DNA of 49,079 nucleotides from Leptolyngbya sp. Prado105 (lineage in GTDB: Bacteria > Cyanobacteriota > Cyanobacteriia > Leptolyngbyales > Leptolyngbyaceae), in assembly GCA_025454375.1 (NCBI GenBank), contig JALOOO010000009.1, positions 1 to 49,079 of the forward strand. The letters run 5' to 3'. This document shows, piece by piece, positions 1,202 to 36,578 of this stretch. The notes under the pieces are model-generated. The model was not told the origin of the DNA, searched no databases, and was given only the letters and a program-made list of their open reading frames with translations. The translations under genes and the position numbers were made by a program. Each line of letters starts with the position of its first letter. The stretch's first letter is position 1.

Positions 1202-1236
1202 GACGGTAAGCCTCGAAGGTGGAAATGAGGTGGAGA
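1202..1236 (-). promoter_or_regulatory. Shared 11-nt-period direct-repeat element, upstream of PRC-barrel gene
   Basis: Read on the minus strand, the half-sites are TCTCCAC and TTTCCAC with an 11-nt period. The tail CTTCGAGGCTTACCGTC aligns without gaps to the tails of the other copies (CTTA, then CGT). It points toward the PRC-barrel gene that begins at 1040. A small open frame covering this stretch (1044-1292) is therefore unlikely to be a gene. Operator identity is inferred from recurrence only. Confidence 0.5.
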
Positions 1237-1333
1237 AAAGGTAGAATTATTGCTAATTTTTTCTGAACGCATAGAGGGTGCGGGATTGACACAAAAGATT
1301 AGTCGGCTCTGCAACAAGCGATAACTCTTGGTT

Positions 1334-1726
1334 CTAACCATGCTTGTCTAGGAGGGCTTTGACCTGATTTGCTAATTCTAGAGGCTTGAATGGTTTACTA
1401 ATCACTCCTCGAACATCAAGTTGAGCAAGTTGACTCGGCTCGATCGAGCGTCCCTTAGCGGTGAGTAAGATTACTGTGATGTGCTTTGTAAGCGGATTCG
1501 ATCGCAAGTTTTTCAAAATTGCGAATCCGTCCATCTCAGGCATCATGATGTCGAGCAAGACTGCATCTGGTTGCTCGACTTCAGCTTTGGTGAGTCCTTC
1601 AGTACCACAACACGCTGCGGATACTTGCCAACCGTTGACCAGTTCCAGGCAGGTTTGAATTAAGCTTCGGATATCTTCTTCGTCTTCGATTACCAAAATT
1701 TTATTGATCGCCATTGCTGTCTTCAT
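1334..1726 (-). CDS. Single-domain CheY-like response regulator
   Basis: A 130-residue stand-alone receiver domain. The acidic pocket is in VIEDEED near the N-terminus, the phospho-acceptor Asp is in AVLLDIMMPEMDG, and the conserved Lys is in ISKPFKP. There is no output domain, so it probably acts by protein contact or as a phosphorelay intermediate. It is transcribed divergently from the hybrid histidine kinase starting at 1869, a plausible partner. The start could be ATG at 1726 or the second Met at 1714; neither has a clear ribosome site. Confidence 0.9.
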   Translation of the reverse strand: MKTAMAINKILVIEDEEDIRSLIQTCLELVNGWQVSAACCGTEGLTKAEVEQPDAVLLDIMMPEMDGFAILKNLRSNPLTKHITVILLTAKGRSIEPSQLAQLDVRGVISKPFKPLELANQVKALLDKHG

Positions 1727-1868
1727 CGTTTATCTTTAAGCATAGATCCTAAATTAAATCATGCTACTGAATTAAATAATACTAACAGGTTCAAGCAGAT
1801 GTATCATTAGTAACTCTGCAAGAATTGAACCTCTATAAAGTAGCAAGATAATTCTACTGGCTAGTTAA

Positions 1869-2741
1869 ATGTTTAATGCCCGTTTTTTCTCACTCAACTT
1901 AGAGCATTTATCACAATATGTCGTTGCGATCGCCTCGACCGTGATCGCGCTCCTTCTCACAGACTGGCTACTATGGCAGCTTCAACCTGCATTATATCCG
2001 TTCTTTATTGCAGCGGTAGCAATTAGCTCATGGTATGGAGGGTTAAGATCTGGACTATTAGCAACTATCCTAAGCGCTATTCTCAGTGAATACTTCTTCT
2101 TTTCTAATCTATACGCTTCTTCTTCTACATTGCAAGATTTGCTGCGAATTAGCTACTTTGTAGCAGTAGCAGTCTTGATTTGCTCACTGAATGCGCTGCT
2201 GCGTTCTGAGCAGCAACGGGCGGAAAGACACGCGAGAGAAGCCCGTCGAAACCAAGAACTGTTGCTTCAGAACCAAGAAAGCTTGCGTCAAAGTGAAGAA
2301 CGGTATCGCCTGCTGATTGAAGGTGTAACTGATTACGCCATTTTTATGTTGAATCCGATCGGAGAAATCGTGAGTTGGGGAACTGGAGCGGAACGCCTTT
2401 TAGGATATCAAGAAGCAGAAATTTTGGGTCAGCCATTTGCGCGAATTTTTACCCCTGAAGCCGTTCGGCGGGGCTTACCAGAGAAAGCGCTCAAACTGGC
2501 AGCTACTGAAGGATTCTCTAGAGAAAATCGGTGGCATCTGCGGCAAGATGGTTCTCGATTTTGGGCGCATTGTGTGCTGACTCCGCTTCGCGATGAAGCC
2601 GGGAATCTACGTGGGTTCACGAAAATTATGCAGGACATCACGGCACGAACCGAAGCTGAAAAAGAGCGTGATCAATTGTTACAACGAGAGCAGGCAGCGC
2701 GTCAGGAGGCAGAGACAGTGAATCGATCGAAGGATGAATAG
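1869..2741 (+). pseudogene. Hybrid histidine kinase, sensor half (DUF4118-PAS), ended by in-frame TAG
   Basis: Residues 1 to about 120 contain four hydrophobic segments of the DUF4118 membrane sensor. A coiled linker and a PAS domain follow (about 140-265, SEERYRLLIEGVTDYAIFM to FTKIMQDITAR). The frame ends at TAG 2739-2741 in NRSKDE-stop. In intact kinases this position is followed by a Phe and then LAILSHELRTPL; here that H-box continues in the same frame right after the stop. The half therefore has a sensor but no catalytic part. It may be a single nonsense mutation, a sequencing error, or a readthrough site. The remaining 1.1 kb shows no other lesion. Confidence 0.8.
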
Positions 2742-2786
2742 CTAGCTATTCTCTCGCATGAACTGCGAACGCCTCTAACTGCGATC

Positions 2787-3890
2787 GTGGGTTGGATTGG
2801 AATGATTCGTGCTGGACTCTTGGATCAATCGAGAACTGACCGTGCCCTAGAAACGGTTGAGCGCAACGCCAATTCGCAACTGCAACTCGTTGAAGATCTG
2901 CTCGATGTTTCGCGCATTGTTCGTGGAGACTTAGGACTCAGCTTTAGCCAAATCAACTTCACTGATGTGTTCACTGCGGCAATCCAAGTCATGCAACCCG
3001 TTGCAGATGCAAAAGCGATTCAACTCACGACGATCAACATGCTAGCGAATCAAGCTCCAATCTATTTGTGGGGCGATGCAGATCGATTGCAACAAGTGAT
3101 TTTGAATTTAGTTTCAAACGCAATTAAATTTACCCCAACGGGTGGGCAAGTGACAGTTCAGCTTGATTTAGTAGAAATTGAGGGACACCCTTTTGTGCAG
3201 CTTCAAGTTCAAGATACCGGGATTGGCATCCGTGCAGATTTTTTACCTTATGTCTTTGAGCGATTTCGGCAAGCGGATAGTACCAGTGCGCGATCACATA
3301 AAGGATTAGGTCTTGGACTTGCGATCGTGCAGTACATTGTCAGACAACACGGCGGAACGATTCAAGCCGCAAGTCCAGGAGTAGGACAAGGCGCAACCTT
3401 TACGGTCAAGATTCCGTGTTTGGGAAGCGATCGGGAAAGGCAGAACATGGCTCCATTCATTCCTGATTCCTCTGTTCTCCCCGCGAATACAACGGTTCTT
3501 GTCATTGATGATGAAGCCAATGTACGCGAATGGCTGACGACCCTGCTACAGTCTCATGGAGCAGTCGTGATTGCGGTTGAATCCGTTGCAGAGGCACTCA
3601 AAACACTAGAGGAGCAAACACCAACGGTATTGATTAGTGATATTGCACTACCTTACGAAGATGGTTATGTTCTGATTCAACAAGTACGACGCTTTGAGGC
3701 TTCGCACCAAGAATCACAGGAGTCTTCCGTTGGTGTTCAGATTCCTGCAATTGCTCTGAGCGCTTATGCGGGTGAAGCGTCTCGTCAGAAAGCACTTGCC
3801 GCAGGCTTTCAGGCTTATCTAGCAAAGCCTGTGACACCGAGTGAGTTAATTCGTGCGATCGTCCAGTTGATCGAGAACTCAGAGCAATGA
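2787..3890 (+). pseudogene. Hybrid histidine kinase, catalytic half (HATPase-REC)
   Basis: This continues the frame of the gene at 1869 after the TAG. It carries the end of the dimerisation helix pair (LVEDLLDVSRIV), a HATPase domain with N-box LNLVSNAIKF, DTGIGI and GLGLGL, and a C-terminal receiver with VLVIDDE, phospho-Asp in ISDIALPYEDG and Lys in AKPV. The phospho-accepting His (codon 2757-2759, in SHELRTP) lies between the stop and the first available start (GTG 2787). A re-initiated product would therefore lack the His. No ribosome site precedes GTG 2787. The half is clearly the remainder of one gene. Confidence 0.8.
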
Positions 3891-3894
3891 GATG

Positions 3895-4743: not shown

Positions 4744-4934
4744 AATAGGTTGAGAATATTATCTCGCACTATGAAATAACTAGCTCGCACATCACATCTA
4801 TCAAAATAATGAACTTATCTGAGTCCTCTTCAACATGGCTATCTGCGCTACCAAGAATCGCTCTACAGAGAGGCGTTAAGTTTGTTGTTTAAGTTTAAGG
4901 TTGAGCGAATGATTAGACCTCTACGGAGAATAGT

Positions 4935-5254
4935 ATGGAAGCTCCAACGATCGTCGAAAGTGAATCTCTATCTCATAAACTAGAGTAAGCAAATTGGCAA
5001 AATTCTACGTCTGATTGGATGGACGGGTCTTGCCACACAGCCGCAGCTTTGTTATTCACAGCCTTTCTCGCGTTTCGCCAACTGCGATTTGCTCGTCGTC
5101 TTCGCAATCTAGATCCAGACCTTCATCCGAAACAGAGTGAAGTCATGCAAGTGCTTAGAATCGGTGTGATTGCAGGACTTGTCGGTATGGCGCTGACGAT
5201 TTCTTAGGCACGATCGCATCTATTGCAACTGCAAACTGGTTACATCGGCAATAG
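4935..5254 (+). pseudogene. Decayed DUF3611-like membrane protein gene
   Basis: Pieces of one protein are spread over shifting frames. ATG 4935 opens MEAPTIVESESLSHKLE and stops at TAA 4986. QIGKILRLIGWTGLATQ follows in another frame. FRQLRFARRLRNLDPDL and VLRIGVIAGLVGMALTI then return to the first frame, and a further shift gives LGTIASIATANWLHRQ before TAG 5252. The pattern (aromatic/Arg helix end, then Pro-Lys, then a Gly-rich helix) resembles the intact DUF3611 protein at 47358. The middle of the family is missing. Family assignment is moderate; decay is clear. Confidence 0.55.
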
Positions 5255-5255
5255 C

Positions 5256-5537: not shown

Positions 5538-7376
5538 TTATCTAGCTGGAGAACTTCTTAGTGTTACCACTTTGTTTGTGTTTCGCTCTAAACAGTTAAA
5601 GATGCGAGTGAGCAGTTTTGATTCAACGATCGATTTATTCACACAATCGGTTGCACCTGCTAAAAACATCTGATGAACTGTTTCGAGATCGGTGTGAATG
5701 GTAAGGAACAAAATCGGTAGATCCGACCAATGAGGATCATTGCGGATGACTCGACAAAGCTCAATTCCGTTGAGATAAGGCATTTCAACGTCCAGAATTA
5801 GCAAATCTGGAGCGCAATCATTGAGAACTTGCCAAAATTGCTCTGGCGTTTGGAGTGTGGTTAGGTTTAAGGACGAGGCTGCTAGGCGCGATCGCATTGC
5901 ATTTAAAACTTGTGGATCATCATCTACTAATAAAACACTTGCTTCAGTCCAATTTCTTTGCTGTATCTCAGTCGCTGCTTTGAAGATTGCGGCAGCCGAC
6001 AAGGACTTGTGCAGAAATTTGCTGCCTCCGTGTCGAGCCACTTCAACCCGATCCAGTAATCCTTCTCGCTCAGCCCAAACTAAAATTCGTAAAGGTTGCT
6101 CAGAAAGTTCTGACAGCAGCGTTAAGCCAGTTTGAAAGCTTGGAGCGCAATCTAGATCGACAAGCACAACATCAGGATTGTGAGCTGCAACTGCGCTTAA
6201 TCCTTGTTCGATGTAGCGATCGTCAACTAAATTAGAAGCTGTTTTCACTTGCAATTGCCAATTCTTTGCTTCTTCGATTAGCGGTTCGACTGAGCCTGAA
6301 TTCTGGCTTAGAACGAGAAGCAATGGATAATTTTGCTTGAGTGTCTGTTCGATCGTAGGCGCATTCTCAAAAATCTGACGCAGTTGAACGATCGCTTGAG
6401 TGAGAATTTGAGCTTGATGAGTTAAATTTTCAGCTTGTAGACTGTCTTCGATTTCTGCTGCTAATCGAGAACCATCATCAAAGCCAAGCGTTCCTAATGC
6501 TCCGGCTAACTTATGGGCTTCGTGTTGTGCTTGCTGCCGTAATTCTTCGTTTAATCTACCCTGATTGAGCGCAAGAATTACTTGCTCTAGAACGCTTAGA
6601 CGATCGCTAAATTTCGCTTTGAAACTTTCTCTTGCTTTTCGGACAGCGATTTCTGTTTGTTGCTCAACCCAACTCGATTCTGAGGCTTGAGAAGTTTGTG
6701 TTTCGGCAGGGTTCAAGCGATAGCCTAATCCATAAACTGTCTCAATCAAATCTGAAGGTGCGCCTACTTGATTCAATTTTTGCCGCAGAGTTTTGATATA
6801 GGATTTAATCGTTGCTTCTTGAGGCGGATCGTTCAAATTCCACAGATGATCCACGATCGCGCTTCGGTTAAAGGTGCGGTGACTATTGCGTAAAAATAGC
6901 TCTAATAAACGATACTCTGTTGAAGTCAAATTCACCGGGAAATTGCGGTACGTTACTTCACACGAACTCGGATCAAGTCGTAAGTAACCCCATTCTAAAA
7001 TCGGAGTTATAGAACCGCTCGATCGACGCAACAACGCCCGAATCCGAGCCATCAACTCTGGAAAATCGAACGGTTTAATCAGATAGTCGTCGGCTCCCGC
7101 GTCTAAGCCTAAAACTTTATCCGTTGTGGTATCTTTTGCTGTCAGTAGAAGAATTGGCGTTTGATCCCCAGCTTGGCGCAATTGCTGACACAAACTCATG
7201 CCATCGAGCTTGGGTAGCATCACATCGAGCAAAATCAAATCATAGTTTGCATGAACGGCACACTGCCGCCCTATTTCACCATCTATGGCAATATCAATAA
7301 CATACTGCTGCTTGATTAGTACGTCTGAAATTGCATTTGCGATCGCGTCATCATCTTCTATTAGCAAAATTTTCAT
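5538..7376 (-). CDS. OmpR-type response regulator with Hpt and two further receiver domains
   Basis: About 612 residues. Receiver 1 (1-120) has phospho-Asp51 in LILLDVMLPKLDG. A winged-helix OmpR/PhoB DNA-binding domain follows (about 130-225, ending ETVYGLGYRLNP). An Hpt domain has its His in EAHKLAGALGTLGF. A weaker receiver and a complete C-terminal receiver (LLVDDDPQVL, LLILDVEMPYLNG) complete it. The chosen ATG (7376-7374) has AAGGAG 7 nt upstream; a longer frame to 7448 lacks this. It can bind DNA and relay phosphate, so it could read the 11-nt-period repeats found in this window. That link is inference. The neighbouring sensor genes are broken, so its kinase is not obvious here. Confidence 0.9.
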   Translation of the reverse strand: MKILLIEDDDAIANAISDVLIKQQYVIDIAIDGEIGRQCAVHANYDLILLDVMLPKLDGMSLCQQLRQAGDQTPILLLTAKDTTTDKVLGLDAGADDYLIKPFDFPELMARIRALLRRSSGSITPILEWGYLRLDPSSCEVTYRNFPVNLTSTEYRLLELFLRNSHRTFNRSAIVDHLWNLNDPPQEATIKSYIKTLRQKLNQVGAPSDLIETVYGLGYRLNPAETQTSQASESSWVEQQTEIAVRKARESFKAKFSDRLSVLEQVILALNQGRLNEELRQQAQHEAHKLAGALGTLGFDDGSRLAAEIEDSLQAENLTHQAQILTQAIVQLRQIFENAPTIEQTLKQNYPLLLVLSQNSGSVEPLIEEAKNWQLQVKTASNLVDDRYIEQGLSAVAAHNPDVVLVDLDCAPSFQTGLTLLSELSEQPLRILVWAEREGLLDRVEVARHGGSKFLHKSLSAAAIFKAATEIQQRNWTEASVLLVDDDPQVLNAMRSRLAASSLNLTTLQTPEQFWQVLNDCAPDLLILDVEMPYLNGIELCRVIRNDPHWSDLPILFLTIHTDLETVHQMFLAGATDCVNKSIVESKLLTRIFNCLERNTNKVVTLRSSPAR

Positions 7377-7559
7377 CTCGGCTCCTTGTTCGGTCTTTCT
7401 TTCTAATCCGTAGCAACTTGACGAAGAGTGAGTGATACGACTATCCAAGTAATTAATTCTTCTTGGAAGCTCTAGCTAAAAATATCATAGGTCATAGCTG
7501 CACTTGGTCTCCACTTTATTTCTACCTTTATTCCATATATCGTATTAAATCCGAGAGGG

Positions 7560-7901
7560 ATGGCTCAACTGCGTATTTATCTAACACTTCCACTCATCAT
7601 GGCAGCAATTCAAGAGGTTTTATCAACAGAGCCGTACTGTTTCTATGAGAAATTACTGCTTGCCCCTGAATCACGGAAACGACTTATTGTGTCTGTCTTT
7701 ACACAGGCTCGCTGTGGCTATCAGGTCTTTATTGATAATGCCAAAGCGCTTTATTTTTCGGCAGTTGAGCCAAAGTTCCTACTGAAGAATCTAATTCATC
7801 AGGAGATGAATTATTTGATTCGAGAACATGACGATCGAGCAATATATTTAGCGGGTTTGACGCTGCGGCGATCGCCAAATATTGACCCTTTCAGCAATTA
7901 A
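7560..7901 (+). CDS. Small conserved hypothetical protein
   Basis: A 113-residue soluble protein without a motif I can name. It begins MAQLRIYLTLPLIMAAIQEV and then alternates short helices and strands with several Arg/Tyr residues. This resembles small uncharacterised proteins common in cyanobacteria. A purine-rich GAGAGGG run directly precedes the ATG, which is close for a ribosome site; ATG 7599 is an alternative start. A degenerate copy of the shared direct repeat (TCTCCAC at 7508, TTTCTAC at 7519) lies about 35-50 nt upstream. Function not assigned. Confidence 0.55.
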   Translation: MAQLRIYLTLPLIMAAIQEVLSTEPYCFYEKLLLAPESRKRLIVSVFTQARCGYQVFIDNAKALYFSAVEPKFLLKNLIHQEMNYLIREHDDRAIYLAGLTLRRSPNIDPFSN

Positions 7902-7967
7902 ATCCCTTGTTGAGATTAAGTGACAGGAATCTATATCTCCAGAAGTAACTTCGAGAATTTATCCTCA

Positions 7968-8002
7968 TTTCCACCTGTTTTCCACCATTTCGCCTTAGTA
8001 TT
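7968..8002 (+). promoter_or_regulatory. Shared 11-nt-period direct-repeat element, upstream of secreted-protein gene
   Basis: Two exact TTTCCAC half-sites at 7968 and 7979 are followed by CATTTCGCCTTAGTATT, which aligns with the tails of the other copies. TAGAAC lies 17 nt after the TTTCGC segment, so a -35/-10 pair directly downstream of the repeats is possible. It faces the gene at 8101, about 100 nt away. Confidence 0.55.
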
Positions 8003-8100: not shown

Positions 8101-8859
8101 ATGATGCGTATGCTTGACCTAAAAAACAGCAATTTGATAGGGTTCTTTGGCGGGTTGATCCTTGGAGTTCCTATTCTTTCCTCAACTGCACTAGCTTCGC
8201 CTACTCCCAGGCTTAATCCCTGCCCCAGAATCTACTATGAAGAGCCTTATAACAGTCGATTGATTGTTCCGCAAACTTGTCCGCCGAATGCGATTACTCA
8301 ATTTGCGATCCAGAATCTAGGTGCGTTTCGTCGTGGAGTGGGCGCAGTAGGCAGCGATTTACCTGCACCCACACAAGGTCTGACTCCTAACCTAACTGTG
8401 CCTGTTAATGTACCCAGGACACTGGGTACTGTTAGTCAACGACCTAGCATCTTTAATGAGCCTCCGTACAATCGCACTGCTCCAGGCACACCCATAACAC
8501 GCCCGGTTCAGCCTCCATTACCAGAGCAGCGATCGCAACCTCTTGCCAGCATCACTCCCAACAATGGCAAAATCAACGTCAGATTAAAAAATGACACCAA
8601 TACTATCGTCACATATGAAGCTATTCAGTACACACAAAGACGGTCTTTAAGACCCGGAGAAGAAGTATTGCTGCAAAATATTCCTGTACCCGTGACTGTA
8701 AGCTTCGTGCGGCAAGACAATGGCTTTGTAGAAGTGATTCCAGTCAACAATCCCGAAGCTGGATTGCTATCGCTTACCTTGGATGAAGATACTACTCCGC
8801 TCGATCGCAACCAGGGTGTCATTCGAGTGCAGCAAAACGGTCAGGTATTCCTAAACTAG
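8101..8859 (+). CDS. Secreted protein of unknown function
   Basis: A 252-residue protein. The N-terminus has a basic start, a hydrophobic core (LIGFFGGLILGVPILSS) and an ALA-S cleavage-like site near residue 32, a Sec signal peptide. The middle is proline-rich and of low complexity, with two (N/E)EPPYN-like segments. The C-terminal 100 residues look like a beta-rich domain (KINVRLKNDTNTIVTYEA to VIRVQQNGQVFLN). I recognise no catalytic motif. Three Met codons compete for the start (8101, 8104, 8110) without a strong ribosome site. A shared regulatory element precedes it, and a two-module lipoprotein gene follows about 90 nt downstream. Confidence 0.75.
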   Translation: MMRMLDLKNSNLIGFFGGLILGVPILSSTALASPTPRLNPCPRIYYEEPYNSRLIVPQTCPPNAITQFAIQNLGAFRRGVGAVGSDLPAPTQGLTPNLTVPVNVPRTLGTVSQRPSIFNEPPYNRTAPGTPITRPVQPPLPEQRSQPLASITPNNGKINVRLKNDTNTIVTYEAIQYTQRRSLRPGEEVLLQNIPVPVTVSFVRQDNGFVEVIPVNNPEAGLLSLTLDEDTTPLDRNQGVIRVQQNGQVFLN

Positions 8860-8945
8860 AAGCCTGTAGAAAGTTAGTTTGATGAGCTTTGCTTTTACAT
8901 TGTAGCAATATTTACATTAGCGAATTAATTAAGGAGAATTTTTTA

Positions 8946-9881
8946 ATGCATCGTTCAACCCGTTTAGCCCGAAAGCTCTGGAATGCCAAAAGTGCATTTG
9001 CTTTAGCTCTTGCAATTACAGTTCTACCCGCGTGCAATCAAGTCACTCAGCAAGAAGCAAGAAATGTAACGACTGAAAACATTACCGAGAATACAAATCA
9101 ATACATTGGCAGAACTGTGACGATTCGGAGTAAACCAATCCGCAACCTCGGTTCAAATACATTCACAATGAGTAGTGAACAGTTCTTTGGACGAGAGCCG
9201 ATCGTGGTTGTGAATGCTTCAGGCACTCCATTTGTCCTGCCTGAAAACCAAAATCTTGAAGTGCAGGTCACAGGTCAAGTCCGTCAGTTTGTCCTTTCCG
9301 AAATTAATCAAAGCTACAATCTTGGCTTGCAACCCGATGTGTATCGTGAGTATGAGAATCGCCCTGCAATTATTGCTCAATCGATCGCATTAGCGCCTGA
9401 GCCTGGACAGATTAGCCAAAACCCAAGTGCCTACTATGGTCGAACGATCGCCGTTGATGGAGAAGTTGAAGACGTGAGAAGCGCGAATTCCTTCACGTTA
9501 GAGAATGATCAATTGCTAGGCGGACAGGACTTGTTAGTTCTAAATCCCAACTCTGGGCAACCTGTACAAGATGATCAAAACCTTGCTGTGACTGGTGTTC
9601 TTCGTCCGTTTGTAGTGGCTGACCTAGAGCGCGAATACGGTTTCACCTGGGATCGGGGTTTTGTGCAACAATTGGAAGCAGAATACCGCGATCGTCCCGT
9701 ACTGGTTGCAACAGGTATCTATCCATCTGCCCTTCCAGATAACAGTGATGCACTCTGGGGACTGCTGGGATTAGCTGGTTTACTTGGCTTATTTGGACTT
9801 ACAAGCGGTGGAAGACGCAGACATGAAAATAGGCGCGACTTGCAGGATGCACCCGCCTATCGCGATCCTAGTATTCGCTAA
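8946..9881 (+). CDS. Two-module lipoprotein with WGxxGxxG C-terminal segment
   Basis: The ATG at 8946 is chosen because AAGGAG precedes it. The 311-residue product has a signal peptide ending in VLPAC, making Cys30 the lipidation site. Two copies of a roughly 95-residue beta-rich module follow (about 52-147 and 160-255). Each reads: GRTVTIRS or similar, an FT strand, LVLN or VVVNASG, VTG(Q/V)(V/L)R.FV, E.EY, and ENRP/RDRP..A. The C-terminus has WGLLGLAGLLGLFGL followed by basic residues, a WGxxGxxG sorting-type segment not seen in the two paralogs (17195-17770, 19887-20732). The module may be OB-like, but that is only an impression. Function unknown; envelope location is well supported. Confidence 0.8.
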   Translation: MHRSTRLARKLWNAKSAFALALAITVLPACNQVTQQEARNVTTENITENTNQYIGRTVTIRSKPIRNLGSNTFTMSSEQFFGREPIVVVNASGTPFVLPENQNLEVQVTGQVRQFVLSEINQSYNLGLQPDVYREYENRPAIIAQSIALAPEPGQISQNPSAYYGRTIAVDGEVEDVRSANSFTLENDQLLGGQDLLVLNPNSGQPVQDDQNLAVTGVLRPFVVADLEREYGFTWDRGFVQQLEAEYRDRPVLVATGIYPSALPDNSDALWGLLGLAGLLGLFGLTSGGRRRHENRRDLQDAPAYRDPSIR

Positions 9882-10234: not shown

Positions 10235-11167
10235 CTAGCGGCGTGCAGTTGCTAATGCAGGTTCATGCTCTAATGCCTCACTACGTTTGCGAGCAATGTA
10301 GCTGAGGATCGCTCCATAGATTACCTTCGAGGTAATATCAGCGACCGTGTACAGAATCTGTCGTGTCACGGCTCCCCACGCTGTCGGCGCGATCGCAGGA
10401 ATTAAATAAGCGATTGGATAGAGCGTCCAAGTCACGAGAATAAACCAAAACACCCCTCTCATTGCTTTGGGTAAGTTATCCGGTTCTCTCGGTAACTGAT
10501 CCGCAGAGCGATTAATCATGCGCCCTACAACATAAGCGACATAGACGTAGAACACCGAGCTAATTGCGCCCCAAAGAAATAGCAGTGGAATGTTTGTCAC
10601 CTCATAGAACTGTCCAATGTATCCGGTGTAAATCATTAACAATCCACCGATAACAAACTGAGTTCCATAAGCAATGGTGCGACCTCGTGTGAGTCCAAGA
10701 ACGACCGTCAATTGCAAAAGCAACATCGGCACATCGATCGACCAGTTCACATAGCGAAACCCATTAGAAAATGCAGTCGTCGTGGGTCGCCATAGTCCAT
10801 CCACATAGGAGAAAGCGTTGTTCCAGTTTTGAAACAATTGGAACAGTTCAAGAAACGCAGACACCATCACGACGGCGGACAGAGTTGAAGAGAGCCGATA
10901 GCGTGGAGCAATGTTATTACTAGACAGCACAAAGTACACAAAACCTGCGGCTTGTGCCGCATAGCCCAGCGTTAGAACGTGAGAGATAATATCGTGCTGA
11001 ATCGGCGTGTAGGTGAGGGTGTTTTCAAACACTAAGCCTGTATTAATTAGACCCGGTGCAGCCTCAGCAGTAGGAGGAACCTGAGCATAAACCTGAGCCG
11101 TAAAGAGTACAAATATAAGTGCAAAAACGGCAGCTCCAACTGGAAGCAGCTTTTTGGCAAAGCGCAT
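10235..11167 (-). CDS. NDQ-motif microbial rhodopsin, predicted light-driven sodium pump
   Basis: A 310-residue seven-helix type 1 rhodopsin. Helix C reads RYVNWSIDVPMLLLQL, placing Asn141, Asp145 and Gln152 at the positions of KR2 Asn112, Asp116 and Gln123, the signature of sodium-pumping rhodopsins. The retinal-binding Lys281 lies in ADITSKVIYG, with Asp277 one turn before, as in KR2. TGYIGQFYEV also matches KR2. Residues 1-29 add a basic start, a hydrophobic stretch and AQVYAQ, like a cleavable signal, which KR2 lacks. AGGAGG precedes the ATG. Sodium export is inferred from the motif. A CPA1 antiporter lies divergently upstream. No carotenoid oxygenase for retinal is in the window. Confidence 0.93.
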   Translation of the reverse strand: MRFAKKLLPVGAAVFALIFVLFTAQVYAQVPPTAEAAPGLINTGLVFENTLTYTPIQHDIISHVLTLGYAAQAAGFVYFVLSSNNIAPRYRLSSTLSAVVMVSAFLELFQLFQNWNNAFSYVDGLWRPTTTAFSNGFRYVNWSIDVPMLLLQLTVVLGLTRGRTIAYGTQFVIGGLLMIYTGYIGQFYEVTNIPLLFLWGAISSVFYVYVAYVVGRMINRSADQLPREPDNLPKAMRGVFWFILVTWTLYPIAYLIPAIAPTAWGAVTRQILYTVADITSKVIYGAILSYIARKRSEALEHEPALATARR

Positions 11168-11463: not shown

Positions 11464-12705
11464 GTGAATCACCTAAATTCAACTGAAATTAACACCGCTT
11501 TTGCTGCCCTTGGTGGACTAATTGTATTGTTGGGACTGTTTTCGGGCTTCCTGAAAGAGCGACTATTTTTATCTGATCCCTTCATTGCATTAGTGGCTGG
11601 AATTCTGCTTAGTCCTGCCGTTTTTAACTGGGTAAATCTTAGCCATTGGGGAAGTACGAAAGGAATTTTAGAACAAGGAGCAAGACTTGCGATCGCGGTA
11701 CAAGTCGTCGCGATCGCACTACGATTACCGAAGGGTTATGTTTATCAAAGTCGGAGATCACTAATGGTGCTGCTGGGCTTGGTGATGCCGCTCATGTGGC
11801 TTGCTAGTGGACTTCTAGCAACCTGGCTTTTAGAAGTTTCGATTTGGCAAGGAATGCTAATCGGCGCGATCGTCACGCCGACTGATCCGGTCATTGGTTC
11901 TGCGGTGGTTACAGGCAGAATTGCAGAAAATCATCTTCCCGGTCGAATTCGTAACTTAATCTCGCTCGAATCCGCAGCAAATGATGGATTAGCATACCCC
12001 TTCGTTTGGCTATCTATTTTGATGCTAACGCGACCGACAGGAGAAGCGATGTCTCACTGGATCTTCAAAACAATTTTGTGGGAAGTTGTGGGAGCCGCGA
12101 TCGCGGGCACAGTTCTGGGTTATGGACTGGGAAAGCTGCTGCTTTGGGTGGAACAAAAGCAAACCCAGGAAAAACAATCATTTTTAGCCTTGACGATCGC
12201 GTTCTCTCTGTTGATCTTAGGCTCAATCAAGCTGCTGGGAGGCGATGGCATTTTTGGCGTTTTTGTTGCCGGGATTGTGTTTGATAACACTGTGGAAGGC
12301 ACTGAACGCGCAGAAGAAACAGAGGTTCAAGATGCCATTGATCGGTTTTTCACGATTTTAATTTTTGCACTTCTGGGACTGGTTCTACCCTGGCAGGAGT
12401 GGATAGCACTCGGATGGCGTGGTGTAGGGCTTGCGATCGCAATTCTTTTATTCCGTCGGCTTCCCGCAATTCTACTCGTTCAGCCGTTGATGCCTCGGCT
12501 GCAATCCATCAAGGATGCGCTATTTGTTGGCTGGTTTGGTCCTATTGGCGTAGCTGCGCTATTCTACTCGATACTGGCACTGAAACAAACCGACTTTGAT
12601 CTAGCCTGGACTGTCGGTAGCTTAGTTATTTGTAGTTCCGTTATTGTGCATGGTTTCACATCAACTCCCAGCACTAAACTTTATGATGCAAACAATCGTG
12701 AGTGA
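11464..12705 (+). CDS. CPA1-family sodium/proton antiporter
   Basis: A 413-residue membrane protein with about 11-12 hydrophobic segments. TPTDPVIGSAVV and LISLESAANDGLAYP are the two conserved ion-site segments of NhaP-type CPA1 exchangers; the Asn-Asp pair marks electroneutral types. It exchanges cytoplasmic sodium for protons at the membrane. The apparent start is GTG 11464; ribosome-site support is weak. It lies back-to-back with the NDQ rhodopsin across 296 nt, so the two may share regulation. Another CPA1 protein at 44599 is only distantly similar. There is no C-terminal regulatory domain. Confidence 0.88.
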   Translation: MNHLNSTEINTAFAALGGLIVLLGLFSGFLKERLFLSDPFIALVAGILLSPAVFNWVNLSHWGSTKGILEQGARLAIAVQVVAIALRLPKGYVYQSRRSLMVLLGLVMPLMWLASGLLATWLLEVSIWQGMLIGAIVTPTDPVIGSAVVTGRIAENHLPGRIRNLISLESAANDGLAYPFVWLSILMLTRPTGEAMSHWIFKTILWEVVGAAIAGTVLGYGLGKLLLWVEQKQTQEKQSFLALTIAFSLLILGSIKLLGGDGIFGVFVAGIVFDNTVEGTERAEETEVQDAIDRFFTILIFALLGLVLPWQEWIALGWRGVGLAIAILLFRRLPAILLVQPLMPRLQSIKDALFVGWFGPIGVAALFYSILALKQTDFDLAWTVGSLVICSSVIVHGFTSTPSTKLYDANNRE

Positions 12706-17194: not shown

Positions 17195-17770
17195 TTAGTT
17201 AACTCGCTCGATCGCAGCGGCGGCAACGTAAGGTTGATTGGCGTATTGCTGTTCAATTTCAGGAGTAATATCGATGCTGTACTCCTTCTCAACATCAGCC
17301 ACTACAAGATTACGGATAACCCCAGTCATCTCAATGTTAGTGTTGACTGGAGGTGCTGAATCTTTAGTGGTAACAAGGACTGTTTGTCCTCGCAGTGATT
17401 CGGTATCGTAAACGGTGAATAAATTGGGCGTAATCACTCTTTGGACTTTCGTGCTGACGGTCACAGTCTGTCCAACTAGCTCTCCCAGTGGTCTAGTAAT
17501 AGGCACAGGTGAAGCTGTGGGTGAGGCAGGTGCAGGCGAAGCTGTGGTCGGTGAGGTAGGTGCAGGCGAAGCTGTGGTCGGTGAGGTAGGCGTAGCAGGT
17601 GAGGGTGAAGCAGGTGAGGGCGAAACAGGAGCTACAACTTCTCGTTGCTCGGCTGCACAGGCGGAAAATACTAGGGCTAGAAGTCCGGCTGTAATCATTC
17701 CAGGAATTTTTCCAGAAAGGGAGCGAACAATACCCTGCTGAACCTTGACATTACTTGTTCTACGAACCAT
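17195..17770 (-). CDS. Lipoprotein with proline-rich linker and one copy of the shared module
   Basis: The start is set at ATG 17770 because GAGGAG precedes it; earlier TTG codons overlap that site. The 191-residue product has a long basic N-terminus, a hydrophobic core and lipobox LVFSAC, giving a membrane-anchored lipoprotein. A roughly 50-residue Pro/Ser/Thr/Ala linker follows, encoded by 30-bp tandem repeats. One copy of the module also found twice in each lipoprotein at 8946 and 19887 comes next: GQTVTVSTKV, FTVYD, VLVTT, MTGVIRNLVVADVEKEYSI, YANQPYVAAAAI. A shared regulatory element lies about 35 nt upstream. Function unknown. Confidence 0.8.
   Translation of the reverse strand: MVRRTSNVKVQQGIVRSLSGKIPGMITAGLLALVFSACAAEQREVVAPVSPSPASPSPATPTSPTTASPAPTSPTTASPAPASPTASPVPITRPLGELVGQTVTVSTKVQRVITPNLFTVYDTESLRGQTVLVTTKDSAPPVNTNIEMTGVIRNLVVADVEKEYSIDITPEIEQQYANQPYVAAAAIERVN
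17507..17590. repeat. 30-bp in-frame tandem repeat in lipoprotein linker
   Basis: Two nearly identical 30-bp units start at 17521 and 17551 (GTGAGG, C or T, AGG, TGCAGGCGAAGCTGTGGTCG), with partial units on both sides. They encode a 10-residue Pro/Ser/Thr/Ala repeat. The unit length keeps frame, so copy-number change would vary linker length without breaking the gene. Confidence 0.75.
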
Positions 17771-19886: not shown

Positions 19887-20732
19887 ATGAATCGATTTAG
19901 CGTAAATCAACTAATCCGCCGATCGCATACCAATCGCAAATTATTCAGAAGTAGCGGAGTTGCAGCTTTGGCTCTCATGGCATTCATTTTGCCCGCTTGT
20001 AATCTAAATCGTGAAGCGGCTGCTCCAACGAATGCAACCGCAGAAAAGGTGGCTACCAACACCGATCGCTGGATTGGACAAACTGTGACGATCCGAAGCG
20101 AACCGCTCAAAAAGATTGCTCCGAACACATTCACGATGAGCAGCAATCAATTTTTTGGACAGGAACCGATTTTGGTGGTGAACGCATCCGGCAAGCCGTT
20201 TGTCCTACCCACTACACAAGGACCTGATGTTCAAGTCACTGGACAAGTCCGTCGCTTCGTTCTGACGGACGTTGAGCGGGAGTACAACTTAGACTTAGAT
20301 CCTAATCTGTATCGCGAGTATGAAAGTCAGCCTGCTATCATTGCTCAATCGATCGCCCTAGCTCCCGAACCCGGAGATATTGGTCAAAATCCAGATCGTT
20401 ACTATGGTCAAGCGATCGCGGTGACTGGAGAGATTGAGGCGGTAAGAAATCCGCAAGTCTTCACGTTAGATGAGGATAAATTGTTTGGCACACAAGATCT
20501 TTTAGTCCTGAATGCTCGACCTAGAGAAAATGCAGCCAATCCAAATTTAGCGGTGAAACCAGGAGATACGATCGCAGTGACCGGAGTCGTTCGTCCTTTT
20601 GTCGTTGCTGACCTAGAGCGAGAGTACGATTTTAACTGGGATCAAGGCTTTGTCCGAACATTAGAAGCTGAGTACCGGAATCGCCCCGTTTTAGTTGCAA
20701 CTGGACTGTACCCATCTGAAATTCCAGAGTAA
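19887..20732 (+). CDS. Two-module lipoprotein (paralog)
   Basis: A 281-residue protein with signal peptide and lipobox FILPAC. Two copies of the module described for the gene at 8946 follow: IGQTVTIRSEPL to YESQPAIIAQSI, then YGQAIAVTGEIEA to YRNRPVLVATGLYP. It is highly similar to that paralog over the whole module region but ends right after the second module, without the WGxxGxxG tail. A clear AAGGAG lies 11 nt before the ATG. The three genes form a family expanded within this window. Envelope location is inferred from the lipobox; activity unknown. Confidence 0.82.
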   Translation: MNRFSVNQLIRRSHTNRKLFRSSGVAALALMAFILPACNLNREAAAPTNATAEKVATNTDRWIGQTVTIRSEPLKKIAPNTFTMSSNQFFGQEPILVVNASGKPFVLPTTQGPDVQVTGQVRRFVLTDVEREYNLDLDPNLYREYESQPAIIAQSIALAPEPGDIGQNPDRYYGQAIAVTGEIEAVRNPQVFTLDEDKLFGTQDLLVLNARPRENAANPNLAVKPGDTIAVTGVVRPFVVADLEREYDFNWDQGFVRTLEAEYRNRPVLVATGLYPSEIPE

Positions 20733-21142: not shown

Positions 21143-21746
21143 TTATTCAAAACTTAACCAGTTCAAGTGCTGAGGAGCGTTGACCAGTGCTTGAGCCGTG
21201 ATCAGGGCTGCAATACTCCAGGTTTGTTTGAGTCGCGCTTTCTTTCCAATTAATCGTCCGTTTTTGCCGTCATAGTATTCGGGAAACTGATCTCGAATTA
21301 ATCGGTCGTGAGCAACCTCGATCGCGCTTTTTGCAAAGTCGATTCGACCTGTTTTTTGTGCAGCAGCAACCAGCATCCACAACAACATCGCCCAGTTGCC
21401 GCCATTGTGATACGACCACGGTGTATTCTTCAAATCGTACCCAGTGATTGATAGCCATTCTTGACCTTCCAGTGCTGGGAAACAGAGCTTCACAGGCATA
21501 TACCCGATCAGATCCGATTCGCGATGCTCGAATAGATTCATAATGCTTTGCGATTCAGATTCAAGTGTTGCCGTGCATGAGAAACACCAAGGCAGAAGGC
21601 ACGAAATCCCGTACAAAACACTGGTCGTAGTTCAAGAAACTAACCGTCGAATCTTGTGCAGCAACTGTACCGATAGGCTCTCCACGATAATAGATTACTG
21701 CTCTTTCGTGGAGTGCGGCAAGGGTTTCCGTCGAGCTTTGTGACAT
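21143..21746 (-). pseudogene. Internally deleted GH100 alkaline/neutral invertase
   Basis: Two pieces of one family lie in different frames. The N-terminal piece (21746 to 21561) reads [15 protein letters not shown] and [20 protein letters not shown], the start of the GH100 catalytic domain. The C-terminal piece (about 21575 to 21143) reads [33 protein letters not shown] and [20 protein letters not shown], the end of the family. About 270 residues between them are missing and the join shifts frame. Intact members are about 450-490 residues and split sucrose to glucose and fructose. The product here would be inactive. Confidence 0.8.
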
Positions 21747-21881: not shown

Positions 21882-22480
21882 CTAAGACGATTCAAAACTT
21901 AAGCGATATTGCTCCTGATCCTGGAGCAGAGGCAGGCTCACAATAAAGGTTGCTCCTTGTCCTTCGCCAAAGCTCTTGGCTTGGATTGTTCTGCTATGTT
22001 GCTCAACTAAGTAACGCGCGATCGCAAGTCCTAGCCCTAACCCAGAGTACGATCGAGTACTGGTACTACCGGCTTGACGAAAGCGATCGAACACATACGG
22101 CAAAAAATCGGCGCGAATGCCGACTCCGGTGTCGATCACTGTAATTTGTGCGATCTGGTCTATTCGCTCTAGTCTCACCGTGACTCGCCCTTTTTCAGGC
22201 ATGAACTTCGCAGCATTAGAAAGTAGATTCCAGAATACCTGCTGCAATCGATCGGCATCTCCCCAGACGAAAGGCAAAGCTTGATTTTGTTCAATTAAGA
22301 ACTCAAACTGAAGCCGTTTTGCCTCAATTTTGGGTCGAACAACATCCGCAGCAGCAGTGATAATATCAATCAGATTCACAGCGGCACAATCGATTCTGAG
22401 TTCTGAGTGAATAATGCGCGAAATGTGGAGTAAATCCTCGATCAATTGAGCTTGCAAGTTTGCATGACGCTCAATCGTTT
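21882..22480 (-). pseudogene. Headless histidine kinase fragment (HATPase)
   Basis: The frame is open from about 22480 and reads ALETIERHANLQAQLIEDLL, the second helix of a HisKA domain. A complete HATPase domain follows: LLSNAAKFMP, DTGVGIRADFLPYVFDRF, GLGLGLAIARYL. Sensor, H-box and any receiver domain are absent. The left side joins directly to the end of the metallophosphoesterase gene, whose last codons lie on the same bases in another frame. The sequence is close to the kinase at 2787. No start with a ribosome site is visible; TTG 22457 is possible. Most likely a deletion remnant. Confidence 0.7.
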
Positions 22481-24771: not shown

Positions 24772-24941
24772 TACAAGAGATAAATCTACACTTTTCACAT
24801 TTTTAGGCAGAACATCCGAAGCGATCGCTGTTTTCCCACCACTTTTCAACCTTTGCTTTCTATGTTTGAAGCATCAATAAAAGCAAGTTACATTTGCAGA
24901 GATCTATACCCACGGAAGTAAATTGAAGGGACTTATTCAGT

Positions 24942-24976
24942 TTTCCACCAGTTTTCCACTATTGCTCTTTATTGTT
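24942..24976 (+). promoter_or_regulatory. Shared 11-nt-period direct-repeat element, upstream of hdeD-like gene
   Basis: Exact TTTCCAC half-sites at 24942 and 24953 are followed by TATTGCTCTTTATTGTT, matching the consensus tail. A second, degenerate pair (TTTTCCCACC, then TTTTCAACC) lies about 110 nt further upstream at 24831-24851. The HdeD-like gene starts at 25034. Confidence 0.6.
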
Positions 24977-25033: not shown

Positions 25034-25588
25034 ATGAGAGTTGAAGATTCTGAATCAACAGAGCAAAAAACTCAGGCGGCAAGCGGTTGGGGAATCGTCA
25101 TTGGGAGCATTATGGGACTCTTAGGACTGGTTGCGATCGCTCGACCACTCTATGCCACGATCGCGTCCACTTTGGTCTTTGGTTGGCTATTCGTTGTTGC
25201 AGGGATTGCTCTAGTTGCTTATGCCTGTCAATCAAATGGTGTAGGAAAGATTCTTTGGAAACTGCTACTTGCAGCCCTTTATCTAATCGGGGGAATTTAT
25301 TTGATTTCCAACGTGGTTACAGGAGCGATCTTCTTGACGATCGCGCTTGGCATCATCATTTTCGGACAAGGTATCGTTCAGGTGTTCATGGCATTCGAGC
25401 TACGGGCACGAGACCGAGGAGTGATGATAGTTGGTGGAATTCTAAACATTATTTTAGGGATTTTCGTTTGGTCAAATTTCCCCTCTAACGCAGCTTGGAT
25501 TTTGGGGGTTTGGGTTGGACTGAATCTGCTCACTCATGGAGTTTGGATTCTGAGCCTTTCTCTAGCAAAACGTTCTGCTGTTCGATAG
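25034..25588 (+). CDS. HdeD-like (DUF308) membrane protein
   Basis: A 184-residue protein with six hydrophobic helices in pairs (VIGSIMGLLGLVAIARPLYA, FGWLFVVAGIALVAYA, and so on to GVWVGLNLLTHGVWIL). This is the DUF308/HdeD fold, linked to acid resistance in enterobacteria. Its role in cyanobacteria is unproven. AAGGAGG precedes the ATG. The N-terminus (MRVEDSESTEQ) is nearly the same as in the paralog at 46350-46901 (MRVRDSETTEQ), showing a recent duplication. A shared regulatory element lies about 60 nt upstream. The AI-2E gene follows within 26 nt and may be co-transcribed. Confidence 0.88.
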   Translation: MRVEDSESTEQKTQAASGWGIVIGSIMGLLGLVAIARPLYATIASTLVFGWLFVVAGIALVAYACQSNGVGKILWKLLLAALYLIGGIYLISNVVTGAIFLTIALGIIIFGQGIVQVFMAFELRARDRGVMIVGGILNIILGIFVWSNFPSNAAWILGVWVGLNLLTHGVWILSLSLAKRSAVR

Positions 25589-32169: not shown

Positions 32170-32179
32170 TTTGTTCTAA

Positions 32180-32680: not shown

Positions 32681-32710
32681 TGTTTCCCCCTCAGTCGTTG
32701 CATAGTTGTT

Positions 32711-32748
32711 TTCGTCGATCGCTCTAGTTTCCTAAAGCGATCGACGAA
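32711..32748 (-). terminator. Perfect 13-bp hairpin between PRC-barrel genes
   Basis: Arms TTCGTCGATCGCT (32711-32723) and AGCGATCGACGAA (32736-32748) enclose a 12-nt loop. It starts about 30 nt after the PRC-DUF2382 stop and ends before the next PRC gene. It has no T-run, so termination or RNA processing within the array are both possible. Confidence 0.55.
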
Positions 32749-32778
32749 GCTACATCAATCTAATTGGTGACACAGGTT

Positions 32779-33612: not shown

Positions 33613-34091
33613 TGGCTCTTCTCTCTAAATACTATAATATTAGTTATAAAAAATCTTGGGATTTGAGCCATCTACCAATTGAAAGAGTTAGGTAATATTA
33701 GATTTATTTTTAGCGATTTTCGTTAAAGCTACAATTACAAAATGCAGAAAGTAAAACGCAGTGATTCTTTCTCAGAGCTAGATGCAGCAAACGTTTTAGC
33801 TAATATAAACTGTAAGGAAAAATCCATATAAACAGAATTTATAGATAAGAAATTTGTATCATAATGTTACTAAATAAACATATCTTGAACTGAAATGTGT
33901 AGACAGATATAAGAAATAGAAAAAACTAAATAAGTTACGGTTATTAATGCTGTAATACATCAATTTCTTACGATTCTTCAACCGCAAGAAATTAATGCAG
34001 ATTGTCAAATACCACTCTAAATACCACTTACAGCGATCGATGATTATGACTCTCGCCACTATCACTGAGACAATAATTTGCGTTCAGCACT
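33613..34091. other. AT-rich intergenic region
   Basis: This lies between the start of the PRC-DUF2382 gene and the stop of the debranching-type gene. It is markedly AT-rich (33640-34000). No gene, hairpin or shared repeat element is convincing; only short frames are present. It should hold the promoter of the PRC-DUF2382 gene. Confidence 0.5.
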
Positions 34092-36269
34092 CTAAGGAGT
34101 CCGAGCCTTTGATTTCACTTGTATGGTTGTCCGCTCTCCTAACAAAACTGCATGAACTGCGGCATCCCATCGCGTCTGTTCTCCCTCGCGCCAAAACTTC
34201 AAATCCACCAAATCTTGACCTACTTGAATGTTCTGTAGAGTAATTTCAGGCAACCACTGAGGTAAATGGGGATCAACATAGAGATAACCATTTGGAGCAT
34301 CCGCCTGCACTCCCAACATCGCTTGGAGTAACTGGAACACTGATGCCGCTGCCCATGCCTGCGGAACATTTGCTGCTAGATAGGGCGCAGGGAAAGTTCC
34401 AGGTTGACGGGGTACTCCTGCATATAACTCTGGTAAACGATAGCTTGCAAAGTAGCTTCCCGCATCAAAAATACCTTCTGCAACTTGAGCGGCTTCGGTT
34501 GCAAATCCATACCGCTTGAAACCCATTGCAATAAGGCTGTTGTCATGGGGCCAAACCGTGCCTCGGTGATAGGAAAACGGGTTGTAAGCAGGATTTTGGC
34601 TCGATAGAGTGCGAATGCCCCATCCGCTCCACATATCGGGCTGTAAAAGGCGTTCTACGACCCGCGCCGCTCGATCGCGACGAATGATGCCACTCCAAAG
34701 ACAATGCCCTACGTTCGAGGCGATCGTATTTACGGGTTGCTTATCCGGATCAAGCGCGAAAGCATAGAATCCTAACGCTTCAGACCAAAACTTCTCCTCG
34801 AATTGAGCTTGTAACTGTGCTGCTTTGGTGCGAAGTGTATTTGCTCGATCGAGTTCTCCCAAATGCTCAAATACTTCTGCCATTCGCATCCAAGCATCGA
34901 ACGCATAGCCTTGTAACTCGCAGAGCGCTTTTGGTGCTTTTACTTGGGTTCCATCTGGGTAAACGATCGCATCTCCTGAATCTTTCCAAGCCTGATTCTC
35001 AATTCGATACGATGACGAGGTGCGCGATTTGTACTCCTGGAATCCATCGCCATCGAGATCACCATAGCGATCGAGCCACTCCAGAGCTAGTAGAATCGTA
35101 TCCCGATAGTCTTTTAACAAAGCATCATCGCCTAACCATTTCCAGGCTTCGTGGAGTGTAATGAGGAATAAAGCAGTTGAATCAGCACTTCCGTAGTAGG
35201 GACCAAAAGGAATTTGCTGAGTTTGCGCTAACTCTCCTCGTCGAATTTCATGCAGAATCTTACCAGGTTGAGCATCTCGCCAATCATCTACCTCTTTTGC
35301 CTGAAATTCAGCAAGCCTACGAACTGCTCCCAAGGCAAAGTTCGGATGCACAATCATTGTCTGCAAGCTAGCAATTAAGCTATCCCGCCCAAACAATGTG
35401 ACAAACTTTGGTACACCCGCAGCAGCAATCCAGATATCTTCTCCATAGTCATAATCAAATAATCTCAATGCACCTAAATCTTCAACGGATTGTTGATACA
35501 ATCGCTGCACAATATCATGAATCGTTTTAGCCTTGGTTGCAGAACGCCGCCAAATCTCATGCAGTCGCTCAATTTCGGTGTTAACTTGGCTTGGATCGAC
35601 TGCATCTTTGTAGCGATAGGCGATCGCATCCCGAATATGTTCATTGTCTGCTAAAACATAGTTACAGACTGTTTGCCAGACTTCGCCCGGTTGTAGTTTG
35701 ATTTCAAAGGTAATTCGTCCATTCGCATAGTGTACTGGCGAGTTGCAATGACGAATTTGGTATCTTAAGCAGCGGTAGAAGTTTTCGTTGTGATACGTGG
35801 TTGTTAATTCTCGATCGTCTCGATTCCATTGGGTTTCAATCTTTCCTCGTCGAACAAATTTCTGGGATTCGACTTCAAAGACATCCGCGAAATCCGATCG
35901 CAGTGCAATCTCCAGATTAAAACTGACAGGATGAAGCGAGTGATTTGTTATTTCTAGCTCTTCAAGTACGCCAGATTCAACGACGCGGCTAATGACAAAA
36001 GATAGCGTCCCGGCTTGAATTTCGCCTTCTTTTGCTGTAAACGTGGGATTGGTGAGATAGATTTTTGCAGCATAGTAAGTGGTAGTGGTGGAATTGATTC
36101 GAGTCCACTCGTACCCATTAATATACGAACCGTAGTAACTTAGAAACCGCGTGTCGTCGGAAAAGATACCGAGATAGCCATCTGAGTAGATTTGTCCAGC
36201 TAAATCACTCACCATGAACGTATTGCCGTGATTGAGGGTGAGAATTCGTGGCCCGACATAAATTTGCAT
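34092..36269 (-). CDS. Glycogen-debranching-type amylo-alpha-1,6-glucosidase
   Basis: A 725-residue protein. The N-terminal glycogen-debranching domain spans about 1-220 (GNTFMVSDLAGQIYSDGYLG, FSDDTRFLSYY). The catalytic alpha/alpha barrel (about 270-720) has IWIAAAGVPKFVTLFGRDSL, YDGDGFQEY-like calcium-type residues in DLDGDGFQEY, and YHRGTVWPHDNSLIAMGF. It would trim branch glucoses from glycogen-like glucans or related sugars. GAGGAG precedes the ATG. A shared regulatory element lies about 80-115 nt upstream, linking it to the lipoprotein, HdeD and PRC genes. Substrate is family inference. Confidence 0.9.
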   Translation of the reverse strand: MQIYVGPRILTLNHGNTFMVSDLAGQIYSDGYLGIFSDDTRFLSYYGSYINGYEWTRINSTTTTYYAAKIYLTNPTFTAKEGEIQAGTLSFVISRVVESGVLEELEITNHSLHPVSFNLEIALRSDFADVFEVESQKFVRRGKIETQWNRDDRELTTTYHNENFYRCLRYQIRHCNSPVHYANGRITFEIKLQPGEVWQTVCNYVLADNEHIRDAIAYRYKDAVDPSQVNTEIERLHEIWRRSATKAKTIHDIVQRLYQQSVEDLGALRLFDYDYGEDIWIAAAGVPKFVTLFGRDSLIASLQTMIVHPNFALGAVRRLAEFQAKEVDDWRDAQPGKILHEIRRGELAQTQQIPFGPYYGSADSTALFLITLHEAWKWLGDDALLKDYRDTILLALEWLDRYGDLDGDGFQEYKSRTSSSYRIENQAWKDSGDAIVYPDGTQVKAPKALCELQGYAFDAWMRMAEVFEHLGELDRANTLRTKAAQLQAQFEEKFWSEALGFYAFALDPDKQPVNTIASNVGHCLWSGIIRRDRAARVVERLLQPDMWSGWGIRTLSSQNPAYNPFSYHRGTVWPHDNSLIAMGFKRYGFATEAAQVAEGIFDAGSYFASYRLPELYAGVPRQPGTFPAPYLAANVPQAWAAASVFQLLQAMLGVQADAPNGYLYVDPHLPQWLPEITLQNIQVGQDLVDLKFWREGEQTRWDAAVHAVLLGERTTIQVKSKARTP

Positions 36270-36578
36270 ATCTGCTCCTCATTATAAAAAGAGGCTTCTG
36301 ATACGAATTGCCCACGCTTCAAAAAGCCTCGACTCAGGACAGTACAAATTGAACGATAAGAAGCAAGCGTGGAAATCTGGTGGAAAACAACCGCGATCGC
36401 TTCAAACTACTTCTATGGAGATATACACTCTCCATCTAGAATCTCAATGCCTCGATAAGCATACGACTTAAGATAAATCTATTGACGATCGCACACATAG
36501 TACAAGTACGCTCTCTTATTGCTGATTTAATCGGTTGAATCACAGACGAAGCACAGTTTTTCTACAGGGGAGCCATCT
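36270..36578. other. Divergent intergenic region with one shared element
   Basis: It separates the debranching-type gene (minus) from the wrecked regulator gene (plus). It carries the direct-repeat element at 36352-36386, facing the debranching-type gene, and AGGGGAG just before ATG 36579. Nothing else recognised. Confidence 0.5.
36352..36386 (-). promoter_or_regulatory. Shared 11-nt-period direct-repeat element, upstream of debranching-type gene
   Basis: On the minus strand two exact TTTCCAC half-sites (first base 36386 and 36375) are followed by GCTTGCTTCTTATCGTT. The 20-base block spanning both repeats is identical to the copy at 17806-17840. TACTGT lies 16 nt beyond TTGCTT and could be a -10. 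Confidence 0.65.

Follow-up and report, generated by a model that had tools for sequence, protein, structure and literature searches.

A tandem TTTCCAC promoter element in a stress-gene island of Leptolyngbya sp. Prado105 and its candidate RcaC-like regulator

A 49,079-nucleotide (nt) contig of the cyanobacterium Leptolyngbya sp. Prado105 (JALOOO010000009.1, analysed at full length and called the window here) carries a stress-gene island in which one 34-nt element recurs before unrelated genes. The element appears to be an activator-dependent promoter, with two TTTCCAC 7-mers lying 11 nt apart on one face of the DNA and followed, after N10, by TANNNT. It can be assigned with good confidence, on comparative sequence evidence, to an RcaC-like regulator encoded in the same island (5538-7376), which would be activated through a phosphorelay and would recruit RNA polymerase at many island promoters. 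The stress and envelope island would then be under a single regulator, by way of promoters whose design is readable from sequence, and one signal could switch on the whole set of stress, envelope and carbohydrate genes.

The tandem box and its promoter

The window is the entire contig C300 and makes up 0.86% of a genome (G000) of 5.69 Mb in 383 contigs. The initial annotation had reported six sites; all of their coordinates and strands are correct. TTTCCAC-N4-TTTCCAC has four exact matches in the window. The count rises to six with at most one mismatch and to eight with at most two, against means of 0, 0.03 and 0.5, respectively, in 300 simulated windows (first-order Markov). Among spacings of 0-19 nt tried in the window, exact matches arise at N4 only. 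As to the weaker copies that had been suggested, those at 7508 and 24833 stand, with two mismatches each and a correctly placed TA, whereas 47051 is a lone half-site on the minus strand with its partner absent. The sites and three of the target genes are given below, with reference to two relatives, G009 (another genus of the same family) and G022 (the genus of the window).

1203-1236 (-): box with one mismatch, -10 TACCGT (1203-1208); upstream of the PRC-barrel gene
7508-7541 (+): weak box with two mismatches, TA at +10 (TATATC, not TANNNT); upstream of 7560-7901 (+)
7968-8001 (+): exact box, -10 TAGTAT; upstream of 8101-8859 (+), which has no Pfam match; kept in G009 (21338)
17807-17840 (-): exact box, -10 TATCGT; upstream of 17195-17791 (-); kept before the G009 orthologue (28791)
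19452-19485 (+): box with one mismatch, -10 TATAGT; about 400 nt before 19887-20732 (+)
24833-24866 (+): box with two mismatches, -10 TATGTT; the syntenic G022 copy (C395:4095) is exact
24942-24975 (+): exact box, -10 TATTGT; upstream of the HdeD-like gene
36353-36386 (-): exact box, -10 TATCGT; upstream of the glycogen-debranching-type gene
528-1040 (-): PRC-barrel target gene
25034-25588 (+): HdeD-like (DUF308) target gene
34092-36269 (-): glycogen-debranching-type (GDE_N_bis) target gene

The detailed anatomy was derived from 16 sites, chosen on the two 7-mers alone with at most two mismatches; they come from the window and from the contigs that carry the island in G009 and G022. TA begins exactly 10 nt past the second 7-mer in all 16, and the full TANNNT is found there in 15, against a background of about 1.2%, the exception being 7508. 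For each of the remaining offsets between 0 and 39, TANNNT occurs in no more than 3 of the 16 sites. The relatives' sites alone have the -10 element at +10 in 8 of 8 cases, several of them orthologous to window sites. The control was formed by 11 similar matches elsewhere in the genome, ten of which lack TANNNT at +10 (one has it) and nine of which lie inside open reading frames (ORFs) of at least 150 aa.

The CTTATCGTT tail shared by the sites lies at a fixed distance and is a -10 element, so the tandem box occupies the -35 position. The box had initially been placed upstream of a -35; it takes the place of that element instead, and the PhoB/OmpR-type tandem layout proposed at the same time is supported by the two 7-mers, their 11-nt period and the fixed distance to the -10. 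With these features and no -35, the element would qualify as a pho-box-like activator promoter.

Conservation over the 16 sites falls into blocks at -37 to -15, 0-17, 20-22 and 28-37, separated by spacers of fixed length and poor conservation. The block at -37 to -15, approximately TATCTCNNTAGAAGTAACTTGAAG, had escaped the initial annotation and is clear by eye in 8 of the 16 sites. When its consensus was searched for in the three genomes with at most three mismatches, three places were found, each adjoining an island box. In the window, this second block is seen in four promoters:

7931-7953 (+): second conserved block of the 7968 promoter
17855-17877 (-): second conserved block of the 17840 promoter
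24905-24927 (+): second conserved block of the 24942 promoter
36401-36423 (-): second conserved block of the 36386 promoter

The sites are intergenic, and not as frequent in genes as between them: ORFs of at least 150 aa contain none of the 16, though such ORFs cover 79% of the window. Site 19452 coincides in part with two ORFs (123 and 132 aa), and the G022 site 13380 with one of 102 aa; these short ORFs are taken to be spurious. The initial estimate that five sites lie 35-180 nt before a gene start is close to the distances found, about 36-162 nt from the site end for the five named genes (with the inner ATG of the 17195-17791 gene used for this range), while the sixth gene (19887) begins only after about 400 nt.

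Distribution in the genome and in relatives

All six genome matches of TTTCCACCNNNTTTCCAC with 0-1 mismatch sit in the window contig, as do 7 of the 18 matches with at most two mismatches. Because those six fall within 49 kb of a 5.69 Mb genome, the regulon is island-local. Thus, the initial proposal that unrelated stress genes are preceded by one regulatory box holds, but not in the form of a genome-wide regulon. The latter was rejected, since outside the island only G000:C214:4708 fits, with one mismatch to the full promoter pattern; three further genome matches of this type, at three mismatches, are at the level of the control (two reversed-pattern matches in all). The single strong match outside the island, at 4708-4741 of C214 (L109), is followed by an ORF for a possible lipoprotein of 54 aa (5085-5249), a DUF1400 hydrolase and a third protein, which is 48-49% identical to window 8889-9881 and 19887-20732.

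A survey of 388 genomes of the class found the exact box in eight, with four matches in G000, two each in G009 and G022 and one in each of five others; the reversed-pattern control gave four matches. More than one exact box is found only in G000, G009 and G022. None of the five single matches fits TANNNT, and three lie inside ORFs. Orthologous promoters do keep the box, as the G009 counterparts of the 8101 and 17195 promoters demonstrate. Furthermore, the 24833 site is kept in G022 at the same place behind a PLD-domain gene, where it precedes an S-layer-homology gene. The promoters at 36386, G022:C139:2133 and G022:C395:14765 agree in box, upstream block and a portion of the leader, and their genes differ. 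Because these three share a longer stretch and a leader despite the different genes, some promoters probably spread by copying.

The candidate regulator and its signalling partners

Three signalling features of the window bear on how the box might be read:

5538-7376 (-): candidate regulator, REC-winged helix (Trans_reg_C)-Hpt plus two further REC stretches (Pfam)
1334-1726 (-): single-receiver protein, RcaF-like, 45% to the REC gene beside the RcaC-like gene of L124 (Drouetiella)
1869-3890 (+): membrane DUF4118-PAS histidine kinase-REC region, in two ORFs with an in-frame TAG just before the H-box

The regulator ORF reads from a TTG at 7448, and its orthologues start at the ATG at 7376. Within the protein, Response_reg (27-137) and Trans_reg_C (171-245) score above the Pfam cut-offs and are followed by Hpt (273-360), with three REC stretches in all. 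The order of REC and winged-helix Trans_reg_C is that of the OmpR/PhoB family, and the PDB matches are full-length OmpR-type regulators. The build as a whole (REC-winged helix-Hpt-REC) is RcaC-like, and the same build, with an added GGDEF, is found in G020. Of the 40 window ORFs scanned, none other than 5538-7376 has a Pfam domain for DNA binding.

The initial suggestion of this protein as the candidate for the box gains support from co-occurrence. Relatives at 65% identity or more are present in 3 of the 388 class genomes, precisely the three with more than one exact box, and the next best match has 52%. In all three (G000, G009 and G022), box and regulator are found on a common contig. The segment EATIKSYIKTLRQKL of the winged-helix recognition helix is identical in these three, and none of the 34 further RcaC-like regulators in the alignment has it. 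The box, its spacing, the -10 element, the intergenic placement, the conservation and the restriction to regulator-bearing genomes are all direct results of the computation.

In a tree of 55 rows, from which L138 was left out (ORF of less than 450 aa), the three island regulators make up a clade of their own, with support and with G150 and G091 as its outgroups; it lies outside the RcaC clade. The island regulator does not group with the genes beside cpcBA and the TTGCAC tandem, the two sets being separate, fully supported clades. Scans of further genome contigs for relatives of the island gave nothing close: the first returned none, and the second a best match of 45% over the full length.

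The proposed mechanism begins with a kinase and the single-receiver protein 1334-1726, through which the regulator would be phosphorylated. By analogy with PhoB, the phosphorylated regulator might bind the tandem as a head-to-tail dimer and, once bound, recruit RNA polymerase to the weak -10 elements, so that the PRC-barrel, HdeD-like, debranching and other island genes would be switched on together. Binding to the box, activation and the phosphorelay route are all inferred here, as is a signal of the osmotic or drying type. The DUF4118-PAS kinase and the gene content alone indicate that the input is probably membrane or osmotic stress.

Two further features of the island may be mentioned. The stress island includes a bacteriorhodopsin-like protein (10235-11167; Bac_rhodopsin, E 5.5e-40), whose neighbor is a sodium/proton exchanger (11464-12705). 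The ORF 21143-21616 holds only the C-terminal third of a GH100 invertase (profile positions 304-435 of 435) and is likely a gene remnant.

Several observations weigh against the assignment of the box to this regulator. The co-occurrence is that of three genomes, two of them of one genus, and the exact matches in G022 are split over two contigs, one of which (C395) is without the regulator. The G022 2133 promoter is followed only by a short ORF on a small contig and not by a debranching gene. The kinase gene reads as broken in both the window and G009, whether through genuine lesions or through assembly errors, so that the signal input is obscured; the G009 counterpart changes frame in the PAS part, and that of G022 is open to the contig end. 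Nor does any box in the island face the regulator gene itself. Autoregulation through a tandem directly upstream was considered and rejected, as the 400 nt before 34 other RcaC-like genes have no excess of period 11. Apart from these points, the ORF at 21882-22457 has a HATPase domain only; over 188 aa it matches the G009 kinase at 71% identity, and it resembles a piece of a second kinase copy.

Alternative explanations

The promoters could be real and the box bound by another OmpR-type regulator, either RcaC-like or RpaA/RpaB-like, with the island regulator acting elsewhere. The window genome does contain nine matches to the regulator at E <= 1e-60, and tandems of 11 nt are common to winged-helix regulators, yet box and island regulator coincide in the same three genomes and on the same contigs, and the recognition-helix segment is restricted to those three among the 37 aligned; it is judged unlikely. 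A still poorer prospect is that the sites are alike only because a promoter segment, a small repeat, was copied recently, and that no regulator is common to them. The 36386, G022 2133 and G022 14765 promoters are indeed alike well beyond the box, leader included, but some copies share little outside the conserved blocks, and conserved blocks separated by poorly conserved spacers of fixed length are the pattern expected from selection on contacts.

It is barely credible that the sites are DnaA boxes (TTTTCCACA, the cyanobacterial consensus) marking a replication origin or DnaA-controlled promoters. The half-site resembles TTTTCCACA, as given in the part of PMC4674748 available, and a true TTTTCCACA tandem with an 11-nt period occurs in L113. 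However, the A expected after CCAC is replaced by C in 13 of the 16 first half-sites and varied in the second, and the DnaA box was rejected on this final A; moreover, the coupling to the -10 is fixed, the sites are spread over 35 kb before genes, and DnaA is universal whereas the clustered box is found in 3 of 388 genomes. The tandem at L113:4471 (-) is a DnaA-box-like look-alike to be kept apart from the island box.

A possible wider rule for RcaC-like regulators

To our knowledge, the targets of RcaC-like regulators are largely unknown, and a single cyanobacterial genome in the present set has from 1 to 13 matches to such regulators at E <= 1e-60. A tentative proposal, held at somewhat less than even confidence, is that these regulators share the cis code T.T.CAC-N4-T.T.CAC-N10-TANNNT, in which the recognition helix of each regulator fixes the two variable bases, and that each acts mainly on genes beside its own phosphorelay operon. 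The island would then be the largest such local regulon here (eight boxes), and the L-box a light-specialised member.

The rule was derived from loci of RcaC-like regulators of other clades. T.T.CAC tandems are found 23-30 nt behind the regulator-kinase-receiver genes of G020, G017, G021, G270 and G235, and 75 nt behind the operon in G158, where the second half-site ends in CAT; each of these six tandems has TANNNT exactly at +10. The next genes encode Mo-nitro_C and then an NYN-domain protein in G020, a glycosyltransferase in G270 and an APH-family kinase in G235. With G017, G020 and G021 closely related to one another and G235 placed as the sister of G270 in the tree, these amount to about three independent cases.

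Broader searches gave mixed results. Exact tandems near RcaC-like genes do not single out period 11 (194, against 328 for period 9 and 967 for period 14). When one mismatch was allowed and TANNNT demanded, the combination of period 11 and gap 10 had eight matches, six of them with T.T.CA(C/T), and other period-11 combinations likewise had up to eight. The full rule gave six matches over 118 regulator loci, against one in the other 62 combinations of period and gap together, and only L119 was new. Over 42 whole genomes it gave 25 matches against four for the reversed pattern, or 10 against four, a modest surplus, without the 11 island sites, C214 and the three derivation sites. The tandem alone gave 10 matches at period 11, against five for the reversed motif and 11 at period 15, and no T.T.CAC box was seen in the stretches examined from the closest outgroups of the island regulator, G150 and G091. 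On this sequence evidence, the T.T.CAC rule is likely but unproven.

Tandems of this type with TANNNT at +10 were also noted in other genera, at G028:C75:59279, G039:C550:3222, G002:C113:22962 and G039:C320:6220, the last two of which resemble each other. If the rule is true, sequence alone could suffice to assign targets to many orphan RcaC-like regulators, and the promoter rule would offer a testable means of finding the targets of many uncharacterised regulators of this kind in cyanobacteria.

Comparison with known systems

Literature searches on TTTCCAC with cyanobacteria (judged by the titles listed) and on related topics found no such box, although most subscription papers lay outside the search, so that absence from print is not shown. 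The initial view that the box is not a described one thus stands for the exact sequence, within the literature searchable, but not for its kind, since it is a close variant of a tandem linked to RcaC-like genes. Among the results of the unguided search for exact 11-nt tandems near these genes were TTGCAC-type tandems in L122, L124, L131 and L138, which we take to be L-boxes. Two phycobilisome proteins (Pfam) are encoded next in L122, the next ORFs of L124 and L138 begin alike by eye, and the contig of L131 ends first. In all four loci, a -10-like TTTAAT is seen by eye 11 nt past the second half-site. By its sequence, the island box is a variant of this TTGCAC tandem, whose place is next to RcaC-like genes and in front of phycocyanin genes. 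The box itself is no L-box, as TTGCACA-N4-TTGCACA with at most two mismatches has no match in the window. The boxes of RpaB (HLR1) and SphR (pho box) presumably differ from it as well.

TTGCAC tandems before phycocyanin genes are the known RcaC arrangement, as far as the available part of PMC8256508 describes it, and therefore serve as a positive control for the unguided search. In that account, RcaE phosphorylates RcaC via RcaF, and RcaC binds L-boxes (PMC8256508). Like the RcaE-RcaF-RcaC system of complementary chromatic acclimation, the island has a regulator of the same multi-domain build, a single-receiver partner and tandem 7-mers with an 11-nt period. Unlike it, the island regulator belongs to another clade, the kinase is of the membrane/PAS type instead of a photoreceptor, and the genes are those of a stress island instead of phycobiliprotein genes; the half-site is TTTCCAC and not of the TTGCAC type, and the -10 follows at 10 nt and not 11.

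The pho box of E. coli consists, in the portion of PMC4971064 consulted, of two 7-bp direct repeats with an 11-nt period that usually substitute for the -35 near a sigma-70 -10. The island box has this arrangement, whereas its sequence, regulator build and genes are all different from those of PhoB. The RfpA-RfpB-RfpC system of far-red photoacclimation is similar in having a kinase, a single receiver and a multi-receiver winged-helix regulator over a local gene cluster, and differs in that the Rfp proteins serve a light-driven photosynthesis cluster and that RfpB has two receivers around its winged helix; the part of PMC4658448 available gives no binding site for it. OrrA, the osmotic and dehydration regulator of Nostoc, is comparable in its dehydration-type target genes, but was rejected as the type of the island regulator because its DNA-binding domain is LuxR-family, according to the accessible part of PMC13131328. 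From the island it would seem that the RcaC-type phosphorelay, familiar from responses to light colour, serves stress regulons too.

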